From positions 1 through 29,653 of IMG/VR virus record IMGVR_UViG_3300027734_000236: a stretch of DNA of 29,653 bases. The stretch is one strand, 5' to 3'. Below, one piece after another: positions 1 to 6,563 of this stretch. This stretch comes from a virus. A program made the position numbers and the translations under genes. Position 1 is the stretch's first letter; each line of letters opens with the position of its first letter. Under the pieces are notes generated by a model, which was not told the DNA's origin, made no database searches, and saw only the letters and a list, made by a program, of their open reading frames with translations.

Positions 1-64
1 GTAGTCCTCCGCTCAAGGGTTTTGAGTTTGACCCCACCCCCCAGAGTGCCAGGGGGGGTGTCAT
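1..64 (-). CDS. Partial ORF entering the left edge, possibly start of terminase small subunit
   Basis: An ATG at 64-62 overlaps the HNH stop codon as ATGA and opens a reading frame of 21 codons that is still open at the window edge (begins MTPPLALWGVGSNSKPLSGG). The four-base overlap matches the coupling used throughout this genome. HNH genes in HK97-like phages commonly precede the terminase genes, so this could be the start of the small terminase subunit. The sequence is too short and too C/G-rich to recognise a domain, and it may instead be non-coding. Confidence 0.3.
   Translation of the reverse strand, partial: MTPPLALWGVGSNSKPLSGGL
35..60. other. C/G-tract inverted repeat beside the HNH gene
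   Basis: CACCCCCC at 35-42 pairs with GGGGGGTG at 53-60 around a ten-base loop, an eight-pair stem in a region otherwise near 50% GC. It lies immediately downstream of the HNH gene, where cos-type phages carry packaging sites. No T-tract follows on the minus strand, so a terminator is unlikely. A role in packaging or end formation is inference. Confidence 0.4.
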
Positions 65-363
65 CGTTTGACCTTGTTGCCTCGACTGCCGTTGCATGAG
101 CGGTGCGCTCCGCGTAGTTCGGAGTTGGGGTCTGCTGGCACAACATGGTCTGCTTGCCAGGGGTCGTTTGGGTCTGAGGGTTTGCCACAGATCCAGCAGA
201 GGATGGTGGTGTCACGTACTCGCTTTGCGCGTGAGGCGTAATCGCCTTGATAGTGGATTCGCTTCTTATTCCGGTTGCGCTGCCATGCCCCCTGGCAGGA
301 GTCACATCGCTGGATGTTTTGTGTGAGTTGCCGGCACACTAGGCATGGTCGTTGGATGGGCAT
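61..363 (-). CDS. HNH endonuclease
   Basis: A 100-residue protein with the HNH (beta-beta-alpha metal) nuclease layout. Two N-terminal zinc-binding pairs (CLVC near residues 8-11 and CDSC near 20-23) precede a CWIC knuckle, the DPWQADHVVP core with the catalytic His, and the HRSCNGSRG C-terminal motif that supplies the last His, Cys and Asn. Small HNH proteins of this type sit next to the terminase genes in many HK97-like phages and assist cleavage of packaging sites. The gene starts eight bases after the replication-protein stop. The following frame overlaps its stop as ATGA. Confidence 0.88.
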   Translation of the reverse strand: MPIQRPCLVCRQLTQNIQRCDSCQGAWQRNRNKKRIHYQGDYASRAKRVRDTTILCWICGKPSDPNDPWQADHVVPADPNSELRGAHRSCNGSRGNKVKR

Positions 364-371
364 GGGTTGGG

Positions 372-2465
372 TTACCAGAGTTCTGATTCGAGATCGTTTT
401 GATCAAGGTTGGTGTGGGCTTGGGTGGGGGTGGTTCCGAGGTGGTTCCGATTTATGGGTAGTTCTGTCTGAGGTACGGAACCGCGTGTACCTTTTAGGTA
501 CACACGCTGGTTCCTTTGTACAGCATGGAGTGGATCAGGTGGTTCCGAAGTGGTTCCGAAGGTGGTTCCGAAATCGTGGGTGGTTCCGAGTGGTTCCACT
601 TTTTGGGTGCTGGTGGTTCCGAGTGGGTCTGGTCGGGGTTGTTTGCGACATTGGATGGCTCGTCCGATGGCTGACTTGTGGCCTAGTGAGATGCCTTGGT
701 CTTTGAGTTGACGTTGCACTTCGTTGACTCCGATGTTGATGGGGAATCCTAACTCGTCTAGTCGGTTGGCTATGTTGATTTCTTTGGTTGTCCAGCCTCG
801 TTGTTCTTTGCTGCGGAGTCTGATGGTGATGACATCATCAAAGTCTTCGACTATGAGGCTGACGGTTTCTGGTACCCAGCTGATGCGTGTGTGGGTGCGT
901 TTGAGGGTGAGTCCGTCATCGGATTTGTCGAGTCGGTACACGATGTCCACGTCATCGTTTTTGGCTGAGGATCCGCGTTGGCCTTGTTTCTTTCCTCCGT
1001 CTTTGCCTGCGTGGTCTGTGCGCACGCACGCAACGTTTGCTCTTTTAAGCGCAAGTCCAGTCGTCCTGGCAAATTCACGATAACTATCAGCAGAGTTCTC
1101 TTCACCATCGATGGCGCGTCCTGTGGTGTCTATCACTACGACTTCAGCCTTGGTGAGTTCTACCAGTTTGATGATGGCTGAGGCACCTTCGGTGGTGTTG
1201 AGTGAGGGGAGGTTTGGGATGAGCGCGTAATGCAAATGCGATAGGTCGTCGTCTTCTGTGTAGCCGAATTGTTCTAGGCGTTCGTAGAGGTCTGCTTCAA
1301 TCATTTCGTAGTCCAAATACAGACAGTGGACTGGTGGTTGGGCTGGTTGTCCGAGGATGGGTTTACCAGATGCGAGTGCTGCAACGACGTTGAGTGTGAG
1401 CCAGGACTTACCTGTCTTGGCTGAGGCGTAGAGGGCGGTTTGTCTGCCTTTGGCGATGAGTGGTTTGGCTAACCATTCTTCTGTTGCGTGTTCTAATGAC
1501 CAGAAGGTTTTCCAATCCACCAGCATCGACAGCATTTCGTCTGGTGTGGGGATTGGGGTGGTTGGTTCGGATTTGCCTTCAGAGGTGGCTAGGAACGCTT
1601 GTGAGGCTTGTTTCCAGTCTCCTGCATGCTTTGATGCTGCGAAGTATCCGAAGCGGTTGTAGCCCCCTTCGGGTAGCCAAGGGATGCTGGAGGTGAAGAC
1701 GATGAGTGCATCATTCCCGTTATGCCCTATCGTCGCGCTGGAGCCGTCACGTGGGTCTTTGCCTGGTCGAACCCAATGCTGTTCACCATGACGGTCAGTC
1801 TTGGCAAGTGTCCAGCCATCGGGGATGAGTAGCTGTTCCCATGTTGTCTTCGAGTTGTAGCGGGCTGAGGGTGTGTTGGGGTCTGTGAGGAATGAGTCGG
1901 GTTGGCCTTGAGGTTTGACCATCTCTGGTTGTTTGGTTAAGAGTTTGACTAACCAGTCTGGGGCTTTGGCTGGTTTGCGTTCGTGTGGGCTTGAGCCATC
2001 TTCCCATTGGTAGGCGCGTCCGTTGGGGTGGATGGTGGGGGCTGCGAGGACTTGGCCTCCGGTACCTCTGATGTCGAGTCCAACTCCGAGGCGTGAGCCT
2101 GCGTCGTTGCGTATGTCTTCGTCACAGTAGAAGTACAGGTGTTGTCCACCGCTACCTGTGATAGCGGTAACTGTTTCGGGTAGTTGACCATACTTTTCTT
2201 GTAGGTCATGAAGTGTGTCTGAGCCTTTGTATTCGTCCCTATCGTCCACGTCGAGAACAAAGATGCGTCCGTGTTTGGTTTGCCCTGTGGCAATACCGAT
2301 TCCGTATCCTGAGTATTGGCTGGTAAACCAATCGTTCACAACATGAATGTCGTTGGACGCTTTGTCTTGCCAAGCGTTCATCGGTGGATACTTCTCACCA
2401 GGCTTAATCGGGATAACCCTTATACCTAACTCCGCAAGTTTGATGGCTTCATCACGCATAGTCAT
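372..2465 (-). CDS. PrimPol-helicase replication protein (AEP primase/polymerase plus RecA-fold ATPase)
   Basis: A 697-residue replication initiator. Residues 5-175 form a bifunctional primase/polymerase domain of the archaeo-eukaryotic primase superfamily: LDVDD with metal-binding D72 and D74, TGSGGQHLYF with H109, and GLDIRGTGG with D131. A RepA/AAA_25-like ATPase follows, with Walker A ASAKTGKSW at 347-355 and Walker B VVVIDT ending near 447. Residues about 555-600 resemble a winged-helix DNA-binding segment. The last roughly 90 residues are Pro/Thr-rich, look disordered, and are encoded by a repeat array (separate entry). The protein should make primers and unwind DNA at the phage origin. 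ATG 2465 overlaps the methyltransferase stop (ATGA), so the two are translationally coupled. Confidence 0.9.
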   Translation of the reverse strand: MTMRDEAIKLAELGIRVIPIKPGEKYPPMNAWQDKASNDIHVVNDWFTSQYSGYGIGIATGQTKHGRIFVLDVDDRDEYKGSDTLHDLQEKYGQLPETVTAITGSGGQHLYFYCDEDIRNDAGSRLGVGLDIRGTGGQVLAAPTIHPNGRAYQWEDGSSPHERKPAKAPDWLVKLLTKQPEMVKPQGQPDSFLTDPNTPSARYNSKTTWEQLLIPDGWTLAKTDRHGEQHWVRPGKDPRDGSSATIGHNGNDALIVFTSSIPWLPEGGYNRFGYFAASKHAGDWKQASQAFLATSEGKSEPTTPIPTPDEMLSMLVDWKTFWSLEHATEEWLAKPLIAKGRQTALYASAKTGKSWLTLNVVAALASGKPILGQPAQPPVHCLYLDYEMIEADLYERLEQFGYTEDDDLSHLHYALIPNLPSLNTTEGASAIIKLVELTKAEVVVIDTTGRAIDGEENSADSYREFARTTGLALKRANVACVRTDHAGKDGGKKQGQRGSSAKNDDVDIVYRLDKSDDGLTLKRTHTRISWVPETVSLIVEDFDDVITIRLRSKEQRGWTTKEINIANRLDELGFPINIGVNEVQRQLKDQGISLGHKSAIGRAIQCRKQPRPDPLGTTSTQKVEPLGTTHDFGTTFGTTSEPPDPLHAVQRNQRVYLKGTRGSVPQTELPINRNHLGTTPTQAHTNLDQNDLESELW
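432..622. repeat. Iteron-like direct repeat array (GGTTCCGA), candidate replication origin
   Basis: The plus strand carries GGTTCCGA at 432, 443, 541, 552, 564, 582 and 615 and a near copy (GGTTCCAC) at 593. Start-to-start spacings are 11, 98, 11, 12, 18, 11 and 22 bases, mostly close to whole helical turns. The array lies inside the 3' end of the PrimPol-helicase gene. Different copies are read in different codon frames, giving GTT, EPP and RNH peptides, so the DNA rather than the protein repeat appears to be kept. Iterons next to or inside a rep gene are the classical binding sites of replication initiators. Origin function is inferred. Confidence 0.7.
477..514. repeat. Large imperfect inverted repeat between the two iteron blocks
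   Basis: The left arm 477-492 (GGAACC, GCGTG, TACCT) pairs with the right arm 496-514, giving about 16 base pairs with small bulges at 508 and 501-502 and a three-base loop. The outermost arms contain the GGTTCC core of the iterons in inverted orientation. The element lies between the two-copy block (432-450) and the six-copy block (541-622). It could form a cruciform at an origin. A terminator is unlikely because it sits within coding sequence and has no U-tract. Confidence 0.65.
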
Positions 2466-4324
2466 TGTGGAACCTGTTCTAGTTTCATGAGCTGCTTACC
2501 AATCCACTCAGCAACAGGGCTGGCGACACCATTACCGCATTGTTTATAGCGATGAGTGTCAGCCTGCTCCGTGCCATCAGCCTTGAAACGAGTGTGGTCA
2601 TCAGGCCAACCCATCAGCCGTTCACATTCCAACGGGGTTAGTCGACGCACAGCCATCGTCGGCTCAGCAACTAGGTGTTCGCCTCGGCTTGATGGCACAC
2701 CACCGTCACCACCTGACCGCAAGGTGGCAGCGACCTCACCAATCATTTGATGTGCAGGTATTCGACCAGCACGTAATGTTCCTGCGGTGTCATATTCTTT
2801 GACCCCAAACTCGGAGTCTTGGAACATCAACACACCTGTTGATTGTTTAGTGCCTGCTCGTAAAGCGTGATGGGTTTCGTTGATGCTGTCGTTGTACTCA
2901 TCGTAAGCAACAGCATGAACATCGGTACCAGTCAGGGTGAACATTGGGTCACCTTCTTCGGTGTGTCCTTTGCCAGCAGGGCCGTTCTGAGGTTGACGAC
3001 CAATCACATTCCCTTGAATGCCGTAAGCAACAGCGTTGACATGGGTTGAGGTGAGTGTCGCCATTGGGTCGCCATCGTTGCCGATACCTAAGCCTTGACG
3101 GTTTTGTGCATCATATTTCTCTGGGTCACGCAACGCATTACGAGTATCAATCGGATACGCAACAGATGGTGCTGCTTGGCTTGCTTTCAATGTTGGTGAT
3201 TGGTCTTCAAACACGTTTGCGTTGCTGCCAAATTGTGTGTCAAACGCAAGCATTGGAACATTGTTTCCTCCTGTTCCCATTCGTGCGCCCAATGTCTGCA
3301 CCGGTGGCTCATACACTCGCACATCATCAACCCTTGTACCGTCAACCAGCATCGGTTCAATGATGGCTGTAGTGGCACGAGTGTCACCAACATCAAACGA
3401 GTTGAGGTTGGGGTCCACTTCGCCTGGTACCCATGTTTCGTCATCGGTTGCTGATTGCGCACGACGAGACTTCACATACGGTTCAACTACGACTTTGTTT
3501 TCGTTGACATATTGGGTACTAATCATTTTGGCATCAGATGTGTTGAGTGAACCTACGATGTCCGAGCCGAGTATCCCACCTTCGGTGACAAGGTGACCGC
3601 AGTTCACGTCTTGATTTACGACGGTTGATTTGTGGTAGATGCTGGCACCGATTGCGTTGACGATTCCACCACCTGCTCCAAAGCTTTCTGTAAGCGTGTT
3701 GGCAGCACTTTTCCTCTTCGGTTTGCCCTTCGCAGTATCCCTTGGCAAGCTTTCGCCGACAGGTAGTAGCGGGCTTGGACAGTTTGAGGCGGTTGCAGAA
3801 TTGAAGATAGCGATGCAGAAGACCCTTCTGCGTCGTTGGGGGATTCCGAAGTGTTGCGCATCCAAGAGTCCCCATTCGATGACCATCGCCCCTGCTTTAG
3901 CCATTTCGTCAAGGATGACTCCGAAGTCAGCACCTCTGTTGGAAGATAATGCTCCTGCGACGTTTTCCCAAATAGAGATTTTTGGATATTCATTGTTTGT
4001 TTCCTTTCGTATTTCGTTGATGATTCGTATGCCTTCGTGAAATAGACCTGAGCGTTCGCCTTCCAAACCCGCTCTCTTGCCTGCGACTGAGAGGTCTTGG
4101 CATGGTGATCCCCATGCAACAACGTCTGGTGGTGTTCCGTGTCGGAGGATTTCTTGTGCTGTGAGTGTGGTGATGTCGCCCCATCGTGGTACTTGAGGCC
4201 AATGGCGTTCAAGGATGGAGTTGGCGTGTTTGTCCCATTCGCATTGGTAGATGGTTTTCATGCCAGCGTTTTCTAGTCCGAGGTCAAAGCCTCCGACACC
4301 GCTGAACAGGCTTAATACATTCAT
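2462..4324 (-). CDS. C5 cytosine-specific DNA methyltransferase with long variable region
   Basis: A 620-residue m5C methyltransferase. Motif I is LFSGVGGFDLGL at the N-terminus (AdoMet binding). Motif IV is GSPCQ with catalytic C75. Motif VI is ENV (E120) and motif VIII is QRRRRVF near 163-169. Motifs IX and X are RRLTPLECERLMGWP and QCGNGVASPVAEWIG in the last 60 residues. Between about 180 and 555 lies a very long variable region with degenerate units such as GDPMATLT, GDPMFTLT, GTLRAG and ATLRSG, far longer than a usual target recognition domain. It probably methylates phage DNA to resist host restriction, and the target cannot be read from sequence. A good SD (AGGAGGGACA) precedes ATG 4324. 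No partner restriction nuclease is present. Confidence 0.92.
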   Translation of the reverse strand: MNVLSLFSGVGGFDLGLENAGMKTIYQCEWDKHANSILERHWPQVPRWGDITTLTAQEILRHGTPPDVVAWGSPCQDLSVAGKRAGLEGERSGLFHEGIRIINEIRKETNNEYPKISIWENVAGALSSNRGADFGVILDEMAKAGAMVIEWGLLDAQHFGIPQRRRRVFCIAIFNSATASNCPSPLLPVGESLPRDTAKGKPKRKSAANTLTESFGAGGGIVNAIGASIYHKSTVVNQDVNCGHLVTEGGILGSDIVGSLNTSDAKMISTQYVNENKVVVEPYVKSRRAQSATDDETWVPGEVDPNLNSFDVGDTRATTAIIEPMLVDGTRVDDVRVYEPPVQTLGARMGTGGNNVPMLAFDTQFGSNANVFEDQSPTLKASQAAPSVAYPIDTRNALRDPEKYDAQNRQGLGIGNDGDPMATLTSTHVNAVAYGIQGNVIGRQPQNGPAGKGHTEEGDPMFTLTGTDVHAVAYDEYNDSINETHHALRAGTKQSTGVLMFQDSEFGVKEYDTAGTLRAGRIPAHQMIGEVAATLRSGGDGGVPSSRGEHLVAEPTMAVRRLTPLECERLMGWPDDHTRFKADGTEQADTHRYKQCGNGVASPVAEWIGKQLMKLEQVPQ

Positions 4325-6161: not shown

Positions 6162-6563
6162 TTACCACATTGATTCTGAATCATCCTTCACGGCTGGCTC
6201 AACCTTGGCCTTGTACAACTTCGGTGCGTTGAACGCTTTGGACTTCTTTTCACCATCGCCTGTGTACTTGACCGTGAGTTTCGTGCCGATCATGGTGCTG
6301 GCACCGATGGCTTGAGCTGCTTCACGGATGGATTTGACCATCGCTCCACGCGCCCAAAGGTTTCCGATCCCATCGGCTGTGTTAAGGGTGAATACGAAGA
6401 CGTATCGCACATCGCCGTTGTCCCAAGTTTTTACTGTCCCCGCAGGGTCACGGTCTTCGAGCTTCTTTACTTCGATAACCGTGCCGGTGTGGGTGTCGTT
6501 GACATTCTCAAATTTGAGTGCAGGATACTTGCTCCCGCCTTCGGATAGGAATATGTCTGTCAT
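6162..6563 (-). CDS. Single-stranded DNA-binding-like protein (OB-fold)
   Basis: A 133-residue protein with an N-terminal strand-rich region (ALKFENVNDTHTGTVIEVKK, then GDVRYVFVFTL, then KLTVKYTGDG) in the order of an OB-fold. It ends in an acidic, aromatic tail DDSESMW reminiscent of the SSB C-terminal tip that recruits partner proteins. It sits with a RecB-type nuclease and a resolvase-like nuclease, consistent with replication or recombination. It is not a canonical Ssb. The assignment rests on fold pattern, tail and context. ATGA overlap with the upstream gene. Confidence 0.6.
   Translation of the reverse strand: MTDIFLSEGGSKYPALKFENVNDTHTGTVIEVKKLEDRDPAGTVKTWDNGDVRYVFVFTLNTADGIGNLWARGAMVKSIREAAQAIGASTMIGTKLTVKYTGDGEKKSKAFNAPKLYKAKVEPAVKDDSESMW

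Follow-up and report, generated by a model that had tools for sequence, protein, structure and literature searches.

Why should a short DNA repeat be clustered inside the coding sequence of a replication gene? The question is raised by a phage record from IMG/VR of 29,653 bp (the window, meaning the whole stretch that was analysed), in which copies of GGTTCCGA crowd into the last codons of a gene for a PrimPol-helicase. The answer favoured here, drawn from comparative sequence analysis, is that the 3′ end of this gene is very likely the replication origin of the phage, bound by the initiator and embedded in the initiator's own gene. The features on which the argument turns are as follows.

372–2465, minus strand: PrimPol-AAA_25 helicase gene, 697 amino acids, the presumed initiator (Pfam Prim-Pol E=1e-38, AAA_25 E=1e-23).
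645–788, minus strand: codons of a predicted helix-turn-helix (HTH), residues about 560–607, the presumed reader of the repeats (AF2).
372–632, minus strand: coding region of the disordered tail at the C terminus (residues 612–697), which hosts the array (pLDDT about 25).
541–622, plus strand: main repeat array, GGTTCCGA at 541, 552, 564, 582 and 615, with a relaxed GGTTCCAC at 592.
432–450, plus strand: two more exact copies of GGTTCCGA (432 and 443), on the far side of the hairpin.
473–521, strandless: inverted repeat that forms a hairpin, with GGAACC (477) in one arm and GGTTCC (509), 32 bp away, in the other (folding z-scores).
61–363, minus strand: HNH endonuclease gene, which separates the array from the cos end and lies outside the exchanged cassette (PHROG 338 HNH, E=1e-6).
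1, strandless: boundary, right cos end of the phage genome (shared CTAC end; circular assemblies).

Repeats, hairpin and the presumed initiator

Seven exact copies between 432 and 622 had been claimed in the earlier note, and all seven were recovered, together with relaxed copies; no exact GGTTCCGA lies outside this interval in the 29,653-bp window. The core GTGGTTCC, which is commoner than GGTTCCGA, occurs 8 times in 191 bp, while 300 Markov-1 shuffled windows usually held 2–3 copies and at most 6. In the coding direction the unit reads (T)CGGAACCAC, and the copies occupy all three codon frames, as had been proposed from the peptides GTT, EPP and RNH. When the inverted copy GGAACC at 477 and the relaxed copies at 509 and 592 are included, the start-to-start distances of GGTTCC on the plus strand are 11, 34, 32, 32, 11, 12, 18, 10 and 23. 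The spacings of 11, 11, 12, 11 and 22 given at first agree with this only in part, and the step of 18 bp breaks the helical phase that they had implied.

Several direct repeats linked to an initiator gene, as is typical of iteron origins, are present here, with seven exact copies in the gene that are kept in relatives. An AT-rich unwinding element was not found at the array, around which the GC content is 0.49–0.58 and reaches its lowest values (0.46–0.47) at 700–850. There is also no DnaA box near the array, the nearest box with one mismatch being at 2142; DnaA boxes are not obligatory for all initiator-bound iteron origins.

The hairpin at 473–521 had been overlooked, and it sets the copies at 477 and 509 against each other in its two arms. 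Its folding energy is −15.7 to −15.9 kcal/mol, with z of about −5 to −6 against dinucleotide shuffles. Against codon shuffles its stability gives z=−5.2 in the window and z=−9.4 in lineage L046, and it exceeds the shuffles in most lineages, being indistinguishable from them in L066, L067, L069, L077 and some GC-rich prophage cases. DNA folding was used for this comparison, as an ungapped scan for palindromes with symmetric arms missed most of the bulged hairpins. The inner arms vary in sequence among relatives with pairing retained, an apparent compensatory change for which RNAalifold on the mixed palindromes returned weak covariation because the arms align poorly.

The protein itself offers a plausible reader. 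AF2 predicted a three-helix HTH at residues about 560–607, with a pLDDT of about 83 in both models; the full-length model has low confidence overall (mean pLDDT 55). Structural matches to the HTH model were weak and mostly to HTH proteins, and since Foldseek gave no significant match to this model, absence of a protein from the match list is uninformative. Beyond the HTH lies the tail, which is 18–30% identical between phages whose PrimPol and AAA domains are more than 90% identical.

At its very end, the PrimPol-helicase (372–386, minus strand) resembles an SSB-like protein (end at 6162–6176, minus strand), both having a tip that is acidic and closes with an aromatic residue (ESELW and DSESMW). 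Paired tips recur in relatives G008 (PLW/ELW) and G016 (EIF/DDF), whereas the tips in G014 are DDF and EAW. A partner common to the two tips is possible, and the tails of the T7 SSB and helicase are a precedent for such sharing.

Conservation and joint exchange in relatives

A scan recovered 57 relatives, others that are more distant came from a profile scan, and the repeat cluster is conserved in about 50 relatives. Spacing is largely constant: long arrays follow 10-18-12-11 or close to it, the full pattern of 10-18-12-11-32-32 bp is largely exact, and in most of the approximately 35 relatives listed the first hairpin arm is 32 bp from the last direct copy and the arms are 31–32 bp apart. The reading frames and the peptides at the repeats differ meanwhile (GTT, EPL, GNH). 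In codon shuffles that preserve the protein, the best 7-mer, observed 9 times in the window, had a mean of 2.9 and never reached the observed count (0/300), and 0/300 was also the outcome in most other lineages with long arrays. For relatives with only 3–4 copies the count alone was non-significant in such shuffles; these retain the same geometry despite the low count. The repeat array is therefore under selection at the DNA level, as the earlier note had argued from the frames. Its expectation that related phages would conserve the repeats at this site also held, and the finding that would have spoken against it, a conserved tail with lost repeats, turned out to be reversed: the tail peptide diverges, and the repeats, their spacing and the hairpin stay.

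Farther out, the units change and the place does not. Lineages L061/62, L066-74, L069, L075-78, L077 and L079/80 have repeat units of their own in the same position, and distant relatives, as far as the isolated Streptomyces phage mu1/6 and prophages of Streptomyces and Kitasatospora, carry other repeats and a hairpin just downstream of the predicted HTH. The arrays of these prophages consist of GGTTCCC, CGTTCCC or ACCTCCC in a similar layout and have the motif CAGGTCAA in common; its translation is PQV in some prophages and GQ in others, which is conservation at the DNA level once more. The same motif separates forward from inverted repeat copies in the L118 tail, L117, L119-L123 and L125-L128, and could bind a second, shared factor.

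The limits of the distribution were traced in several collections. Lineages L063-65 have the same PrimPol-helicase as a shorter protein, with neither tail nor array, at a different genome position; the repeat clusters found outside the helicase in L063 and L065 proved to be Thr-rich coding repeats. Arthrobacter phage Eileen, Rhodococcus phage Shagrat and Streptococcus phage P7602 have no strong array near their primases. No match came from a profile search of genome contigs with the PrimPol alignment, no relative combining AAA and HTH from a plasmid collection, and no near match from a comparison of window DNA 1–24000 with 50,697 phage records. A scan of 200 genomes of the Streptomyces family added only four loci, one of them with the tail of L117. 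The phages with this putative origin, abundant and uncultivated, are probably phages of actinobacteria, and no description of such an origin type in actinophages was found in the open-access literature.

How array and protein are related can be seen from pairs of phages that differ in both. Lineages L026 and L052 are 94% identical in PrimPol and 98% in AAA, but only 45% in the HTH, and their units are GGTACC and GGGACACC, respectively; the drop in DNA identity is limited to the HTH and tail and recovers in the next gene (HNH). HTH and repeats have been swapped as one between phages with primase and AAA about 95% identical, so that related phages appear to exchange the site and its putative reader together. 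It is proposed that a reader and a site housed in one gene end stay matched through phage recombination. The HTH positions that separate carriers of GGAACC from carriers of GGTACC include residues 601, 604 and 608, which, because there are few independent switches, are a lead on specificity rather than proof.

The cos end, GC skew and competing readings

The main rival to an origin follows from the genome end, about 0.4 kb away. Linear relatives from different samples stop at the same CTAC, circular assemblies go on with CCATGCCGTGC, and one left-end contig begins just past the equivalent of CCATGCCGTGC; together these identify position 1 as the right cos end. The overhang is apparently about 11 nt, approximately CCATGCCGTGC to judge from the circular assemblies, and the left genome end with terL is absent from this record. 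HNH and cos are separated by an inverted repeat rich in GC at 35–60 (CACCCCCC...GGGGGGTG), which nearly all of the listed linear relatives share and which may be part of the cos site or a terminator.

So close to cos, the array could be a packaging site of the cosB or cosQ kind, to which the HNH protein or the small subunit of the terminase would bind. Most relatives with an array indeed have HNH and terL after the helicase gene, and L063-65, with no terL nearby, are without the array. However, array type tracks the DNA-binding domain and not HNH or the terminase, in a comparison that covered HNH and terL as the packaging genes: L021 and L034 are 92% identical in HNH and 93% in terL and yet differ in HTH and array, HNH being 92% identical between phages with different arrays. 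L028 moreover retains its array type without the intervening gene, and the array-bearing gene of mu1/6 is ten genes from terL. A packaging site is therefore judged unlikely.

GC skew provides further evidence for the origin. Cumulative skew, detrended, was calculated for 14 long or complete genomes rotated at the PrimPol stop. In 12 of them, which are related genomes and not independent ones, the minimum lay 0.3–0.95 kb after the stop and so less than 1 kb from the array. Of the other two, G014 is flat, and G013, which lacks an array, places its minimum elsewhere. A skew minimum had been named in advance as a check on the origin, and it adjoins the array rather than lying elsewhere. At fourfold-degenerate sites, seven of ten genomes had the minimum 0.3–0.9 kb past the stop and G016 had it 0.3 kb before, with disagreement in G012 and G015. 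Genes run in one direction along the genomes tested, so transcription direction alone cannot explain a change of skew sign in mid-genome; the minimum lies so near the cos end that the two cannot be told apart.

A regulatory role was also weighed, in which the array is an operator or an RNA element controlling its own or neighbouring transcripts. Repeats of the HTH-bound type with an inverted pair can be operators, and the gene sits in a co-directional run, but the array is more than 1.8 kb downstream of the gene start and has no promoter-like site, nor a T-tract terminator at the hairpin, which makes this reading quite improbable. A search for an intrinsic terminator (GC-rich hairpin with T-run) at 473–521 found none on either strand, and reading the hairpin as a terminator or promoter was unsupported by the site search.

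Still fainter is the prospect that the repeats are clustered methylation sites of the adjacent C5 methyltransferase: GGAACC and GGTACC both fit GGNNCC and the methyltransferase gene adjoins, but the units of other lineages (GGGACGCG, GGGGCGCG, CCTGCCC and CGTGTCG) do not fit. In this methyltransferase (2462–4324, minus strand) a long, repetitive-looking insert of about 350 residues lies between N- and C-terminal parts that are conserved. That the repeats merely mirror a repetitive peptide or codon bias, as a low-complexity and predicted disordered tail might suggest, has next to no likelihood left, such an artefact being ruled out by the codon shuffles, the use of three frames and the constant spacing under a changing peptide.

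A probable origin within its initiator gene, and known counterparts

An initiator-controlled origin in the replication gene, as the earlier note had it, is supported by conservation and skew, with the gene product as the presumed binder of the array and the array as the presumed start of replication; the note's term "plasmid-like" is too strong, because this is a tailed phage of the cos type. In the model preferred here, the HTH of freshly made PrimPol-helicase would bind the repeats, and the opposed sites at the hairpin could load or orient helicase rings and help the DNA to open or to be extruded, with priming carried out by the PrimPol domain. On the circularised genome two forks would then leave the site, one passing through the terminase and structural genes and the other running back across the early genes.

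It is somewhat more likely than not that there is a widespread class of actinophage origins, in which AAA_25 helicase genes, both PrimPol- and DnaB-N-fused, carry at their 3′ end a cassette of reader and origin (HTH, iterons and hairpin in coding DNA of about 0.4 kb) that recombination can exchange and that sets the replication type independently of the catalytic domains. If this is true, abundant uncultivated phages gain a located and testable origin, and initiator specificity is being swapped in nature. The paired HTH sequences and repeat units would then be a ready data set for a recognition code, of use in origin prediction, incompatibility grouping and phage-derived laboratory replicons.

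Among characterised systems, phage lambda offers the precedent for location. Lambda O has its iterons inside the initiator gene, as here, and reader and site travel together; it differs in that O is neither a helicase nor a primase, has an N-terminal DNA-binding domain, and is adjoined by an AT-rich element. PMC7157519 likewise places the lambda origin within the initiator gene O. Phage mu1/6 gp21 is a nearer relation, with a homologous AAA region (35% over residues 308–538), an HTH-like segment, and CCTGCCC repeats with a palindrome at the 3′ end of its gene; it differs in combining AAA_25 with DnaB-N and no PrimPol and in not lying beside terL, and its record is without an annotated origin.

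For the iterons, the alpha protein of phage P4 is a primase-helicase whose winged-helix domain binds origin repeats, with a DnaG-type primase and a different helicase family (described in PMC4234260). In the SaPI Rep/Cch2 group, the C-terminal domain of the SCCmec initiator helicase Cch2 binds short repeats downstream of its own gene (PMC7581432), a likeness to the binding presumed here, but with the site beyond the gene and another helicase family. For the hairpin, the counterpart is the crenarchaeal plasmid pRN1, whose PrimPol-helicase gene shows that a hairpin at its 3′ end can be the origin and whose protein, orf904, has a C-terminal winged-helix (PMC4234260). Prim-Pol and a predicted HTH are present in the phage protein too, but its helicase domain is AAA_25 (RecA-like) and not SF3 as in pRN1. 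The 100-nt stem-loop of pRN1 is downstream of the stop codon, and the plasmid has no iterons (PMC4234260), whereas the phage hairpin, conserved in relatives, is shorter, lies within the coding region and has iterons added. By analogy, then, the candidate origin is one that unites iterons of the P4 and SaPI kind with a hairpin of the pRN1 kind, and lambda O is the precedent for its place inside a gene.
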